Part shown: positions 34,527 to 38,697 of the stretch, piece after piece
Numbering within the stretch: position 1 is the first letter of the stretch
Layout: every line of letters starts with the position of its first letter
Source: Roseovarius nanhaiticus
Lineage (GTDB): Bacteria; Pseudomonadota; Alphaproteobacteria; Rhodobacterales; Rhodobacteraceae
Assembly (NCBI RefSeq): GCF_900156535.1
Contig: NZ_FTNV01000001.1
Span: 1,922,001 to 1,986,000, forward strand
Reading direction: 5' to 3'
DNA length: 64,000 nucleotides
Notes under the pieces: generated by a model
Seen by the model: the letters and a program-made list of their open reading frames with translations, nothing else
Databases searched by the model: none
What the model was told of the DNA's origin: nothing
Made by a program: the position numbers and the translations under genes

Positions 34527-35306
34527 TCAGGCGCGCAGGCGCACCCAGACAGGCACGTGGTCCGACGGCTTTTCGCGGGCGCGGATCTCGCGGTCGATCT
34601 GGCAGTCCTCCAGCAGATCGGCGCAGGCGGGGCTAAGCAGGAAATGGTCGATGCGAATCCCGTCATCGCGGTTCCACGCGCCCGCCTGATAATCCCAGAA
34701 ACTGTAGTGACCGGGGCCTTGGGTGCGCGCGCGGAATGCCTCGGTAAAGCCGAGGTTCATCAGGCGGCGAAAGGCGGCCCGCGTCTCGGGGCGGGCCAGC
34801 GCATCGTCTTGCCACGCTTCGGGACGCTTCGCATCCTGGTCCTGCGGGATGACGTTGTAATCGCCCGCCATGAGAAACGGCTCTTCGAGGGCCAGCAGCT
34901 CGGTTGCGCGCGCCTGCATCCGCTCCATCCAGGCCAGCTTGTAGTCGTATTTCGGCCCCGGCGCCGGGTTGCCATTGGGCAGGTAAAGGCCGCAGACGCG
35001 AATGGCCGTATCGCCCATGACTGTCGCCTCGATCCAGCGCGCCTGCTCGTCGCTGTCATCGCCGGGCAGGCCGCGGGTGACATCCTCCAGCGGCAATTTG
35101 GAGAGGATCGCGACCCCGTTAAAGCCCTTTTGCCCGTGTGTTTCGACGGTATAGCCGCGATCCTCGAAGATCTCGCGCGGGAAGGCCTCGTCGACCGATT
35201 TGATCTCTTGCAAGAGAACCACGTCGCACTCCGCCTCATCCAGCCAGTCGGGCAGGGCGTTGATACGGGCCTTGATGCCGTTGATGTTGAATGTGGCGAC
35301 TTTCAT
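34527..35306 (-). CDS. xth: exodeoxyribonuclease III
   Basis: This is an AP endonuclease and 3'-5' exonuclease in base-excision repair. The 259-aa product matches the ExoIII family: KVATFNINGIKARINALPDWL, VVLLQEIKSVDEAFP with the metal-binding Glu, GVAILSKLPL, LMAGDYNVIPQDQDA with the catalytic Asp-Asn pair, GIRIDHFLLSP and the terminal SDHVPVWVRL with the catalytic His. The start MKVATFN is chosen at 35306; the frame upstream is not conserved. Confidence 0.95.
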   Translation of the reverse strand: MKVATFNINGIKARINALPDWLDEAECDVVLLQEIKSVDEAFPREIFEDRGYTVETHGQKGFNGVAILSKLPLEDVTRGLPGDDSDEQARWIEATVMGDTAIRVCGLYLPNGNPAPGPKYDYKLAWMERMQARATELLALEEPFLMAGDYNVIPQDQDAKRPEAWQDDALARPETRAAFRRLMNLGFTEAFRARTQGPGHYSFWDYQAGAWNRDDGIRIDHFLLSPACADLLEDCQIDREIRAREKPSDHVPVWVRLRA

Positions 35307-35695
35307 GGGCCGGTCCTCGCGGGGCTTGGGGATGCGTGCCCCACCTATCGCGCAGCAGCGCGCCGGGGGCAAGGGAGGCGCGGCAGGACACGGGCGAATC
35401 GCCGGTGCCCGAGCGGCGCGTAGGGTGCTGACAAAAAGCCGAAAACACGTTCAGGTTGCATATTGACTCCTGCAAAAAGCTGCGAAACAGGCCTGCCAAA
35501 GCCGCAAAAATCGCCCGAAAAATCCCCTGTGGATAAGTTTTTTGCGTATTCGGATTCTCCCAAGAGTCTTTGTGCGTTAGCCGAGATTGTTTAGGGCGTC
35601 GCTAAGTCGTAACTCGCCTTTAGGTTGAAATTTTCCTTGGCAGGTCGGGGCCAAGCTGCAAGCCTTTGGGGGTCTGCAACTTCAATCTGGGGATT
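35307..35695. other. 389-bp upstream region of the FTSSM repeat gene
   Basis: This region separates xth (-) from the repeat-protein gene (+) and is distinctly A-rich from about 35435 to 35610. It contains an exact DnaA-box sequence (35528-35536) and a short dyad CTTGGC-N8-GCCAAG near 35635-35656 in the presumed 5' leader. No convincing small gene is seen. It should hold the promoter of the three-gene FTSSM unit. Confidence 0.5.
35528..35536 (-). promoter_or_regulatory. consensus DnaA box (TTATCCACA on the minus strand)
   Basis: This is an exact 9-mer in an AT-richer stretch. No further boxes or origin-associated genes lie nearby, so I do not read it as oriC. It could be a DnaA-titration or regulatory site, or chance. 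Confidence 0.35.
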
Positions 35696-36289
35696 ATGAA
35701 AATGACAGCACAACGCAAAGTTGAAACCACCTTCGCCGCTCTGAACACCCGCACGCCCAGCATGCTCGACGGCGCCGCCACCGAGATGTTCACCTCGTCC
35801 ATGGCGCCTGCCGCCACTGCCGACGCCGGTCTTGGCGAAGGCCTCGAGATGTTCACGTCCTCCATGGCACCCGCCTTGACCGCCGACGCCGCTGCCGGTG
35901 ACGCGGTTCAGATGTTCACGTCTTCGATGGCGCCCAGCCTGCGCAGCGACGCCGCGACCGGCGACAATGTCGAGATGTTCACATCCTCGATGGCACCGAG
36001 CGTGACGGCGGATGCAGCCGCAGGCGACAACGTCCAGATGTTCACCTCGTCCATGGCGCCCAGCGCCCGCGCCGACGCCACGTCTGGCGACGCCACCGAG
36101 ATGTTCACCTCGTCCATGAGCCCGTCGGTCACGGCAGAGGCCGCAGCCGGTGACAACGTCCAGATGTTCACATCGTCGATGGCGCCCGTCGCCGCAGGCG
36201 AAGCAACCGGTGCCTTCACCTCGTCCATGGCGCCCGCACGCGTCGCACGCGAGGGTGACGCGGTCGAGATGTTCACCTCGAGCATGTAA
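35696..36289 (+). CDS. FTSSM tandem-repeat protein, possible multi-core peptide precursor
   Basis: The 197-aa product (195 aa from ATG 35702) has a leader-like N-terminus of about 29 residues (KMTAQRKVETTFAALNTRTP, then SMLDGAAT). Nine copies of FTSSM follow. Copies 1-7 lie exactly 21 residues apart (Met31, 52, 73, 94, 115, 136, 157), each as [E/Q]MFTSSM[A/S]P followed by a spacer like ADAAAGDNV. Copies 8 and 9 are spaced by 16 and 19 residues, and the protein ends exactly on MFTSSM. There is no signal peptide, cysteine or membrane segment. Synonymous codons vary between copies while the motif stays fixed, which shows selection on the protein. A 361-aa companion and a DMT transporter follow. 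Function unknown. Confidence 0.88.
   Translation: MKMTAQRKVETTFAALNTRTPSMLDGAATEMFTSSMAPAATADAGLGEGLEMFTSSMAPALTADAAAGDAVQMFTSSMAPSLRSDAATGDNVEMFTSSMAPSVTADAAAGDNVQMFTSSMAPSARADATSGDATEMFTSSMSPSVTAEAAAGDNVQMFTSSMAPVAAGEATGAFTSSMAPARVAREGDAVEMFTSSM
35783..36289 (+). repeat. 63-bp tandem coding repeats (FTSSM units)
   Basis: There are seven units of exactly 63 bp and two shorter terminal ones. The Thr codon is ACC, ACG or ACA, and the Ser-Ser pair uses TCG, TCC, TCT and, in the last copy, AGC. The repeats are therefore diverged in DNA yet fixed in protein sequence. Confidence 0.9.
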
Positions 36290-36347: not shown

Positions 36348-37433
36348 ATGACCACCATCGTCCGCCTCGACGTCCCGTTCCGGCAGCACAGCAAGGCCGC
36401 GCGCCAAGCGGCCTTGCTCAAGACCTTCGCGCTGACGCGCCGCACGCAAGAGGATGTTTTCTGGCTCAAAGAAAATGCCGAGATTCTCAACATCCTCGAA
36501 TGCACAGGTGCCGAGATCGCGCCCGGTGCGCTGGCGCCGTTCGAAAGCTTCTACGACGATATCGAAGACCGGATGGAGTTCTTTCCGCAGTATTATCGCT
36601 TTCTTCTCTCGCTCTGCCTCGATCTGGAGGATCTGGGCATGGTGGGCGGCAAGGGCGCCGCGCTGGCCGAATGGGTCGCCCAGGAGGGGCTGGCGGATGC
36701 CGAGCTGTCGGACCTGCAACGCGCCGAAGCGCGGCGGCTTTGCGCACGTCGCGAGATCGAGGCGCTGCCGCAGGATGCGGGTCTCGATGCGCGCCTGCGC
36801 AGTTTCGCGGGCCGTGCGCAGACCTTCGCGATGCCCAACAAGAAAGCGGCATACGAGTTGACCCATATCGTTTTCTACCTGTCGGAATATGGCCGTAAGG
36901 ATCCGCAACTGGATGCCGCAGCCGCGCAGAGCCTGATGTTCGCCGGCACGCTCGCCTTTCTTGATTTCAACGCCGACCTTCTGGCCGAGATCTGCCTCGC
37001 CATGCGCTTTGCCGGCCTTGGCGTGCCGGAGGTCTGGGAGATCTGGCTGACTCAGCAGATCCGCAGCTTCACGCTCGACGACGGCGGCGCATTGCAGGAC
37101 GATTACCACGAATACCTGATGCTGAACTGGTTCATGAGCCGGTCGGGGCAGGGCGGTTTCGGCGATCACGTGCCCGAGGGACGTGTGACATTCGCCCGCA
37201 CGCGGCCCGCCTCGGCGCCGCTGCGCGAGCTGTCGCATTGCATCTATGCCATGGGGCGCGGCCGCTCGGGCGATTGGGAGGAGATGCGCGGCGATGTGAC
37301 GTCCCAGGTCTCGGACGAGACGGCGGCAGCACTGGTGGCCGCTGAGGCGGCGACGGACCAGTTCGGCGCCTTCTTCGAGGGCTTTGCGCGGGTCGGCCTG
37401 CGGGGCCGCGCCGCGATGAGGGCTGCGCAATGA
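36348..37433 (+). CDS. companion protein of the FTSSM repeat gene, family unknown
   Basis: The 361-aa soluble product starts 58 nt after the repeat gene, with GGAG 8 nt before the ATG. It is rich in helices. Recognisable conserved-looking blocks are LKTFALTRRTQEDVFWLKEN, FFPQYYRFLLSLCLDLEDLG, YELTHIVFYLSEYG (residues 169-182), LLAEICLAMRFAGLGVPEVW and DDYHEYLMLNWFMS (251-264). The His and Tyr residues in the last three blocks could form a metal or substrate site, but this is speculation. There is no signal peptide and no ATPase, radical SAM or YcaO motif. Its stop overlaps the transporter start (ATGA). The best guess is a dedicated partner or modifying enzyme of the repeat protein. Confidence 0.85.
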   Translation: MTTIVRLDVPFRQHSKAARQAALLKTFALTRRTQEDVFWLKENAEILNILECTGAEIAPGALAPFESFYDDIEDRMEFFPQYYRFLLSLCLDLEDLGMVGGKGAALAEWVAQEGLADAELSDLQRAEARRLCARREIEALPQDAGLDARLRSFAGRAQTFAMPNKKAAYELTHIVFYLSEYGRKDPQLDAAAAQSLMFAGTLAFLDFNADLLAEICLAMRFAGLGVPEVWEIWLTQQIRSFTLDDGGALQDDYHEYLMLNWFMSRSGQGGFGDHVPEGRVTFARTRPASAPLRELSHCIYAMGRGRSGDWEEMRGDVTSQVSDETAAALVAAEAATDQFGAFFEGFARVGLRGRAAMRAAQ

Positions 37434-38338
37434 TCGCTGCGCGCGCCGCGGGCGCCACCATCGCGGTCGGCGTGGGTCTGACCGTCATATATACCGCGCT
37501 CATCTCTAGCGCCGATGCCATCACCAAGATGTTCGCCGCCAGCTATGCGGCGCCGCAGCTTTTCGCGCTGTCGGGCGGGATCGTCGCGCTCCTGGCCGTG
37601 CTGGTCAATCGCGCGGGGCCCAATCCACGCGGCGTCGCCACCCGCTGCCCGCGCGCCATGGCGATCCGCAGCACCGCGACGGTTTTGGGGGCGGGGGCGT
37701 TTTTCTACGCGTTCCGCCTTCTGCCTTTTGCCGAGGTGTTCCTCTTCATCGCGATGATCCCACTCATCACGGCGCTGTTGTCGGGGCCGGTCTTGGGCGA
37801 GGCGGTCCGCCCGCAGGCCTGGGGGGCCGTCTGCCTTGGGATGATCGGGCTATTGTGCCTGGCGCCGCGCGGCCTCGGCACGTTTCAGCTTGGCCATGCG
37901 GTGGCCTTGGCCGCGGTTCTGCTGGGGACGGTGTCCATGATGGCGTCGCGCTATATCGGCCTGCGCGACGGCAACCTTCTGGCGCAGGTGTTTTGGCCCA
38001 ATCTTGCGCTGGCGGGCGTCAGTGCGTTGGCGCTGCCCTTCGTCTGGGCGCCGATGGGGCTGGGTGATCTGGGCTGGGCCGTGCTGTATGCCGGGCTGCT
38101 TTTCGCCGCACGTTGGGTGCTGGTCGGCGCGCTCAAGGCGCTGCCCGCCTATGTGATCACACCGCTGATGAACCTGCAATTCCTGTGGATGGTGGCGATT
38201 GGCGCGGCGGTCTTTGGCGAGGTGCCGGGCACGGCGCTCTACCTTGGGGCCGCGCTTGTGATCACAGCGGGCGCGTGGCTGATCTATGATCAGGCATTCC
38301 CGAATGGCGCGGCGCGCAAGGTGGTGCCGGCCGAGTAA
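37430..38338 (+). CDS. DMT superfamily (EamA) transporter linked to the FTSSM locus
   Basis: The 302-aa membrane protein has ten predicted helices in two EamA halves. Examples are TIAVGVGLTVIYTALISSAD (helix 1), LFALSGGIVALLAVLVNRAG, GAFFYAFRLLPFAEVFLFIA, AWGAVCLGMIGLLCLAPRG, and YVITPLMNLQFLWMVAIGAA in the second half. The start overlaps the companion gene's stop (ATGA), so it is translationally coupled to it. It is a candidate exporter or importer for the system's small-molecule product or cofactor; DMT proteins do not usually move large peptides. Confidence 0.85.
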   Translation: MIAARAAGATIAVGVGLTVIYTALISSADAITKMFAASYAAPQLFALSGGIVALLAVLVNRAGPNPRGVATRCPRAMAIRSTATVLGAGAFFYAFRLLPFAEVFLFIAMIPLITALLSGPVLGEAVRPQAWGAVCLGMIGLLCLAPRGLGTFQLGHAVALAAVLLGTVSMMASRYIGLRDGNLLAQVFWPNLALAGVSALALPFVWAPMGLGDLGWAVLYAGLLFAARWVLVGALKALPAYVITPLMNLQFLWMVAIGAAVFGEVPGTALYLGAALVITAGAWLIYDQAFPNGAARKVVPAE

Positions 38339-38373: not shown

Positions 38374-38697
38374 TTACATTGAAAAAGACGTGCCGCAGCC
38401 GCAGCTGCTGCTGGCGTTGGGATTGTCGATGACGAAGCGCGCGCCGATCAATTCCTCGGAGAAGTCGATGACCGCGCCCGTCAGAAACGGCAGCGAAACG
38501 GAATCGACCACGACCTTCTGACCGAGGCCTTCCAACACCAGATCATCCTCGGCGGGCGCGTCCAGCTTGATCTCGTACTGAAAGCCCGAGCATCCGCCGC
38601 CCTCGACCGCGACGCGCAGGGCCTGGCCCTGATCGCCAGCGCCGATCTCGCTCAGGCGCTCGAAGGCGCGGGGGGTGACTTTGGGGGGCAGGTTCAT
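38374..38697 (-). CDS. erpA: A-type iron-sulfur carrier protein (ErpA/IscA family)
   Basis: This protein accepts Fe-S clusters from the SUF scaffold and delivers them to target enzymes. The 107-aa product has the three ligand cysteines: Cys36 in EGGGCSGFQY, and Cys99 and Cys101 in SSSCGCGTSF. The core IDFSEELIGARFVIDNPNA is typical. It is divergent from dgt, with a short dyad in the intergenic space, and converges on the DMT transporter gene. Confidence 0.9.
   Translation of the reverse strand: MNLPPKVTPRAFERLSEIGAGDQGQALRVAVEGGGCSGFQYEIKLDAPAEDDLVLEGLGQKVVVDSVSLPFLTGAVIDFSEELIGARFVIDNPNASSSCGCGTSFSM

Follow-up and report, generated by a model that had tools for sequence, protein, structure and literature searches.

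Three described systems come closest to the locus reported here. The title of a paper by Shi et al. (ACS Catal. 2026), cited in PMC13352647, describes a DUF6895 protein as an epimerase that takes part in lasso-peptide modification. MslH, the C-terminal epimerase of MS-271, is reported to perform metal-dependent acid/base chemistry at the C-terminal residue of the core (PMC10406935). Multi-core microviridin precursors, as described in PMC5934393, carry several cores on one polypeptide that are handled by a single processing enzyme. DUF6902 (PF21843), the family at the center of this analysis, is listed by Pfam as being of unknown function and is named in no paper of the literature searched. Among the matches listed, no title in the RiPP and lasso-peptide literature on Roseovarius, Rhodobacteraceae or Roseobacter, and none in the epimerase literature, describes the cassette analyzed below; literature matches to the motif strings were unrelated, as judged by their titles and the beginnings of their abstracts.

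The locus lies within a 64,000-nucleotide stretch of the Roseovarius nanhaiticus genome (the window), in which a sequence-only reading had singled out a repetitive protein as a possible multi-core peptide precursor. The open reading frame at 35696-36289 (forward strand) encodes 197 residues, in which the motif FTSSM begins at residues 32, 53, 74, 95, 116, 137, 158, 174 and 193. The first seven motifs are separated by six consecutive intervals of 21 residues, followed by intervals of 16 and 19, and the ninth motif, at residues 193-197, closes the protein. These positions bear out the nine motifs, the exact 21-residue period of seven of them and the termination precisely on the motif claimed by that reading, which was also right that the 197-residue sequence contains no cysteine and no membrane segment, the hydropathy maximum over 19 residues being 0.70. 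Most units follow the pattern G-[D/E]-xxx-[M/L/A]-FTSSM and continue with [A/S]P. In 20,000 composition shuffles of the protein, no 5-mer occurred more than four times, compared with nine copies of FTSSM. The underlying DNA repeats with a 63-bp period and has diverged (68% matches), showing that the motif is conserved better as amino acids than as DNA.

Translation probably begins at the second ATG (35702), since the aligned N-termini of relatives begin M[TS]...K; the upstream start at 35696 would add Met-Lys. The proposed leader-like segment is matched by a conserved beginning in 14 aligned sequences, and together with the repeated cores it gives the gene the make-up of a RiPP precursor; the companion gene proved to encode a DUF6902 protein. 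The precursor has no significant family match in Pfam (best E 0.11), NCBIfam (best E 0.16) or PADLOC, a tblastn search of plasmids with either the precursor or the DUF6902 protein returned no matches, and no Rfam family scored above threshold at the locus. One weak promoter-like match was seen within the region. The features are listed below.

Features of the proposed cassette and of its borders in the window
Feature	Position	Strand	Remarks
xthA-like gene (presumed), left border, outside cassette	34527..35309	-	Pfam Exo_endo_phos
Proposed multi-core precursor gene	35702..36289	+	195 aa + stop; begins MTAQRK, similar to relatives
Leader-like segment, about 23 aa, ahead of first G-x5-F unit	35702..35770	+	M1, K6, G24 invariant (14 sequences aligned)
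Core 1 FTSSM	35789..35803	+	
Core 2 FTSSM	35852..35866	+	
Core 3 FTSSM	35915..35929	+	
Core 4 FTSSM	35978..35992	+	
Core 5 FTSSM	36041..36055	+	
Core 6 FTSSM	36104..36118	+	
Core 7 FTSSM	36167..36181	+	
Core 8 FTSSM	36215..36229	+	
Core 9 FTSSM	36272..36286	+	last five residues of precursor
DUF6902 protein, 361 aa, putative maturase	36348..37433	+	homologous to DUF6895; candidate active-site residues H173, D210, E214, Y253, H254
EamA-family transporter, 302 aa, putative product exporter	37430..38338	+	Pfam EamA E 3.4e-9
ErpA-like iron-sulfur protein (presumed), right border, outside cassette	38374..38697	-	

The three genes follow one another in the order precursor, DUF6902, EamA (EamA2), with the EamA start overlapping the DUF6902 stop by 4 nt (ATGA); the cassette holds no peptidase. 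The EamA2 protein had no PADLOC match and one NCBIfam match well short of the cut-off (24.2 bits against 230.2). The gene on the left border we take to be xthA-like, and the one on the right, recognized from its sequence, is presumably an ErpA-like iron-sulfur protein gene. Across 194 related genomes, DUF6902 was matched in 56, the precursor in 55 and both in 53. Two of the three genomes with DUF6902 alone have contigs cut at the locus (G017, G043) and the third carries a distant match below the family cut-off (G121), while the precursor-only matches in two genomes (G130, G171) are weak (E 0.003-0.007). Of 83 genomes of the genus, 47 contain EamA2 (E <= 1e-30), and comparison of the lists showed the DUF6902 carriers to be exactly these 47. 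Ten of the 36 genus genomes lacking the cassette were checked; in nine the border genes lie 54-148 nt apart, a closed-up site, and in the tenth (L212) they are separated by about 1.1 kb containing no match to DUF6902 or EamA2.

A collection of 92 loci with a DUF6902-type match was reduced to 78 by excluding 13 that match genomes already counted (L124-L136) and a distant DUF6895 locus (L123). In 76 of the 78 a repeat precursor lies 41-142 nt upstream of DUF6902, and the remaining two are contig-cut. Most of the loci have an xthA-like gene upstream of the cassette and erpA- and dgt-like genes downstream; one has no xthA match (L138), two have no erpA/dgt match within 6 kb (L139, L156), and in five (L072, L092, L105, L120, L122) the upstream sequence ends too early for the xthA border. 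Four loci (L137, L140, L176, L177) have no EamA2 match, indicating that EamA is not strictly required everywhere. Outside the alphaproteobacteria, a gammaproteobacterial locus (L196) has the same gene order and a three-copy precursor whose units end FGCYT, LGCYT and YGCYT, with no xthA- or erpA-like match; another locus (L197) has DUF6902 and EamA on a contig that ends just before them.

The sequence-only reading had proposed tabulating copy number against neighboring genes. The 76 precursors contain 3-12 cores each, 535 in total after filtering, so that copy number is not invariant between genomes; some homologues have just 3 units in 72-89 residues. The commonest core of each precursor is FTSSL in 28, FSSGS in 19, FTSSM in 13 and one of twelve other types in the remaining 16. 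Between genomes the core may also be FTCGA, FVSWS or FTNWC, and other relatives carry FSSGL or FTTGL/FTTSC. Two loci (L179, L180) have STSSF as their repeated core, in which the aromatic residue occupies position 5 rather than position 1. Within a precursor all counted cores are identical in 63 of 76 cases, and the spacing is 20 or 21 residues in 414 of 459 intervals (full range 13-29). In three loci (L074, L105, L175) this spacing is broken by a pair of nearly adjacent cores (e.g. FTSSMVEMFTSSM). A script test placed the last counted core at the very C-terminus of 70 of the 76 precursors, and five others have short tails; the precursor of L098 ends on an FSSGS core and was missed since its commonest core is FSTSC. 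This precursor is a rare non-uniform case, mixing FSSGS (2), FSTSC (3) and YSTSC (1), and the precursor of L097 has one odd core, FTFSM.

The pattern used to find cores, G-x5-[FYM], also caught frame-shifted 5-mers such as MAPAR, and these were dropped by requiring at least two of the three middle residues to match the commonest core of the protein; the filter also removed two genuine FSSGS cores from L098, and cores lacking a G six residues before them (e.g. in L074) were missed. Identity at offsets -6, 0 and 1-3 is partly built in by the use of these positions in the filter, which does not apply to offset 4, core residue 5; there, identity is 0.99 among the units of a single protein and 0.30 across proteins. 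At the spacer positions +7 to +13, identity is 0.26-0.36 within proteins and 0.13-0.21 between them. Of the 1695 within-protein pairs of identical cores, only 125 also agree in their DNA, so that recent copying does not account for how uniform the cores are.

The cores are thus nearly uniform within precursors and switchable between them. A tree of 75 DUF6902 proteins requires at least three changes of the FTSSM label on well-supported branches, whether gains or losses. DUF6902 looks broken in two of the loci, by an in-frame stop in L097 (genome G039) and by split matches in L121 (genome G068); the former was left out of the tree and the latter kept, read to its first stop. When the FTSSM clade of the window is compared with its FTSSL sister, several units can be matched by eye through the spacers AREGDAVEM, GEGLEM, GDNVEM and GDAVQM, and each matched unit differs in the codon of core residue 5, ATG versus CTN. 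From these sequences, the switch between Met and Leu appears to reflect selection acting on all cores in a coordinated way. Coordinated switching without DNA homogenization is an unusual evolutionary pattern and suggests strong selection imposed by an enzyme or a receptor.

These observations lead us to propose, with reasonable confidence, that the locus is a multi-core RiPP cassette in which the DUF6902 protein most likely epimerizes each core, a peptidase from outside frees the peptide and EamA exports it. In this model the first gene would provide a precursor composed of a short leader and nine units. The FTSSM core of every unit would be the target of the DUF6902 protein, which would most likely convert one residue from L to D (epimerization) through a candidate active site built from H173, D210, E214, Y253 and H254. 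A G-[D/E] pair is usually found six residues ahead of the core and could mark the site of recognition or cleavage. A peptidase encoded outside the cassette would then release a short peptide, to be carried out of the cell by the EamA protein. The multi-core precursor suggested by the sequence-only reading is hereby supported on genomic grounds: the variable copy number, the adjacency of DUF6902, the co-inheritance of EamA within the genus and the homology of DUF6902 to a family with a member that a title names as a RiPP epimerase.

This homology was established with Pfam, in which the 361-residue protein is a full-length member of DUF6902 (E 5.7e-158, 525.8 bits, cut-off 27) and also matches DUF6895 (E 1.8e-19, 70.7 bits, cut-off 23.8), these being the only two families matched. 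No match was found in PADLOC or NCBIfam. In an alignment of 37 DUF6902 proteins with 12 chosen distant members, six residues (H173, G182, D210, E214, Y253 and H254) are invariant in 49 of 49, a set defined by this alignment and by no publication, with the weak hits L181 and L198-L203 lying outside it. Of the 12 distant proteins, L172, L173 and L191 were the ones scanned with Pfam, and L190 and L192-L195 came from a tblastn search with the L172 protein (six hits, E 2e-25 to 9e-3).

The predicted structure of the DUF6902 protein is nearly all helical (pLDDT 90.5). Alignment by VIA to alpha/alpha toroids gave Z 11.9 for class II diterpene cyclase and 11.0-11.2 for farnesyltransferase beta, with about 9.3-10.9 for complement C4/C3 domains, all below the level that is safe for helical models with this tool, so that the toroid likeness is a hint. 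A Foldseek search with the model gave no match at E <= 0.001, and a sequence search of the PDB with the DUF6902 alignment found no relative (best E 0.28). Judged from the model, DUF6902 is probably an alpha/alpha-toroid protein of the DUF6895 superfamily. H173, D210/E214 and H254 fall within, or at the beginning of, alternate helices of the model (165-178, 209-221, 253-265), the placement expected of residues that would line the core of a toroid.

The reaction itself is the less secure part of the proposal, given that the epimerase assignment derives from a paper title and from homology; as far as sequence goes it is probable, and both the reaction and the residue could differ in DUF6902. We therefore considered a multi-core precursor whose cores are modified by DUF6902 in another way, for instance by cross-linking, dehydration or other alpha-carbon chemistry. 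The separation of DUF6902 and DUF6895 as Pfam families, the single title behind epimerization and the many chemistries served by the alpha/alpha toroid fold suggested by the VIA alignments speak for such a reaction. Against it, the six residues common to all DUF6902 and DUF6895 members aligned argue for a common chemistry, and we regard a different modification as rather unlikely.

Genes of the wider DUF6895 family are found in comparable settings. Small leader-core-like genes precede DUF6895-type genes in four further genomes of Proteobacteria (L171-L174) and, on plasmids, in Streptomyces (L191, L193), Kitasatospora, Pseudalkalibacillus and Gemmatirosa. Several of the linked small genes have aromatic cores: GPWYAYH; GPWYIYK/GPWFVLK, in two units; and DWTFVSPNYVYKG, also in two units. 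Those of L171-L173, L190, L191, L193 and L195, from several phyla, share a leader resembling '..SGLIN..TTLDQL..' and mostly have an aromatic core, with two leader-core units each in L172 and L173. None of these seven had a Pfam match above cut-off, and none had an NCBIfam match; by their sequences, they look like an unnamed precursor family. Linkage to a precursor is not universal in DUF6895, since seven weak DUF6895-like hits (L181, L198-L203; about 35-52 bits) have no visible precursor, and a Streptomyces plasmid (L192) has two tandem DUF6895-like open frames and no clear small gene.

A second alternative, which takes up the binding scaffold raised by the sequence-only reading, is that the repeat protein folds into a structure resembling a beta-solenoid, is used intact and binds DUF6902 or a ligand through its FTSSM faces. 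The AlphaFold model of the precursor does show repeating beta strands (pTM 0.62), with block mean pLDDT of 73-81 for residues 51-120 in the middle of the protein, and VIA aligned it to beta-rich chains, among them one from the SufB-SufC-SufD complex of E. coli (Z 14.8), and to a Methanosarcina protein (Z 13.8). These predicted strands, unneeded by an unfolded precursor, count against the multi-core proposal. However, pLDDT over the whole model is only 61.5, Foldseek found no match to it at E <= 0.001, and exact repeats can lure AlphaFold into solenoids. A scaffold also sits poorly with intervals that range from 13 to 29 despite their usual length, with homologues of three units, with wholesale replacement of the core by FTCGA, FVSWS, FTNWC or STSSF and with homologous enzymes that adjoin unrelated single-core small genes. 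Spacing, short homologues and core replacement thus weaken this idea, leaving in its favor the low-confidence beta-repeat model, and we consider it unlikely. The further suggestion of a Met-rich metal-binding or storage protein, prompted by 20 Met in 197 residues, fails and is highly improbable, because core residue 5, the would-be conserved Met ligand, is variable among relatives (Leu, Ile, Ser, Ala, Cys or Phe) and only 13 of 76 precursors have FTSSM as their predominant core.

Returning to the multi-core RiPP cassette, we rate it as a RiPP-type system built on an uncharacterized branch of a maturase family that is just entering the literature. It supplies DUF6902 with a likely substrate, a testable candidate active site and a transport partner, and its small size of three genes, together with many natural core variants, makes it a practical model in which to study core recognition by a peptide epimerase. 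A bolder and decidedly tentative idea is that these three-gene cassettes of marine Rhodobacteraceae and some Gammaproteobacteria constitute a new RiPP class, whose short D-residue peptides would serve as a strain-specific code with cores switched together by selection on enzyme or receptor specificity and not by DNA homogenization.

How does the cassette compare with the described systems? A multi-core graspetide or microviridin was rejected as a candidate: microviridins are made with ATP-grasp cyclases, and the cassette has no ATP-grasp partner, the DUF6902 protein matching only DUF6902 and DUF6895 in Pfam. The likeness to microviridins is in the arrangement of several cores on a single precursor served by one enzyme. 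MslH has a calcineurin-like fold, and the DUF6902 model is all-helical; the two are set apart by this description and by Pfam only. Like MslH, the DUF6902 protein would be a RiPP epimerase, and most precursors here also end on a core; MslH is reported to act at the C-terminal residue of its core. A lasso-peptide core must suffice for a ring of 7-9 residues, and the conserved core here has 5, a figure that gives the length of the conserved part and not of the mature peptide. Genes for the lasso B (peptidase/RRE) and C (cyclase) proteins are absent beside the cassette, where the neighbors are xthA-, EamA-, erpA- and dgt-like. The substrate would also differ, a multi-copy 5-residue core in place of the single core of a lasso precursor. 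The nearest likeness is to the DUF6895 lasso-peptide epimerase cited in PMC13352647 and known here by its title: DUF6902 is a homologous maturase, and the six invariant residues are shared with the sampled members of DUF6895, as distinct from the published protein itself.
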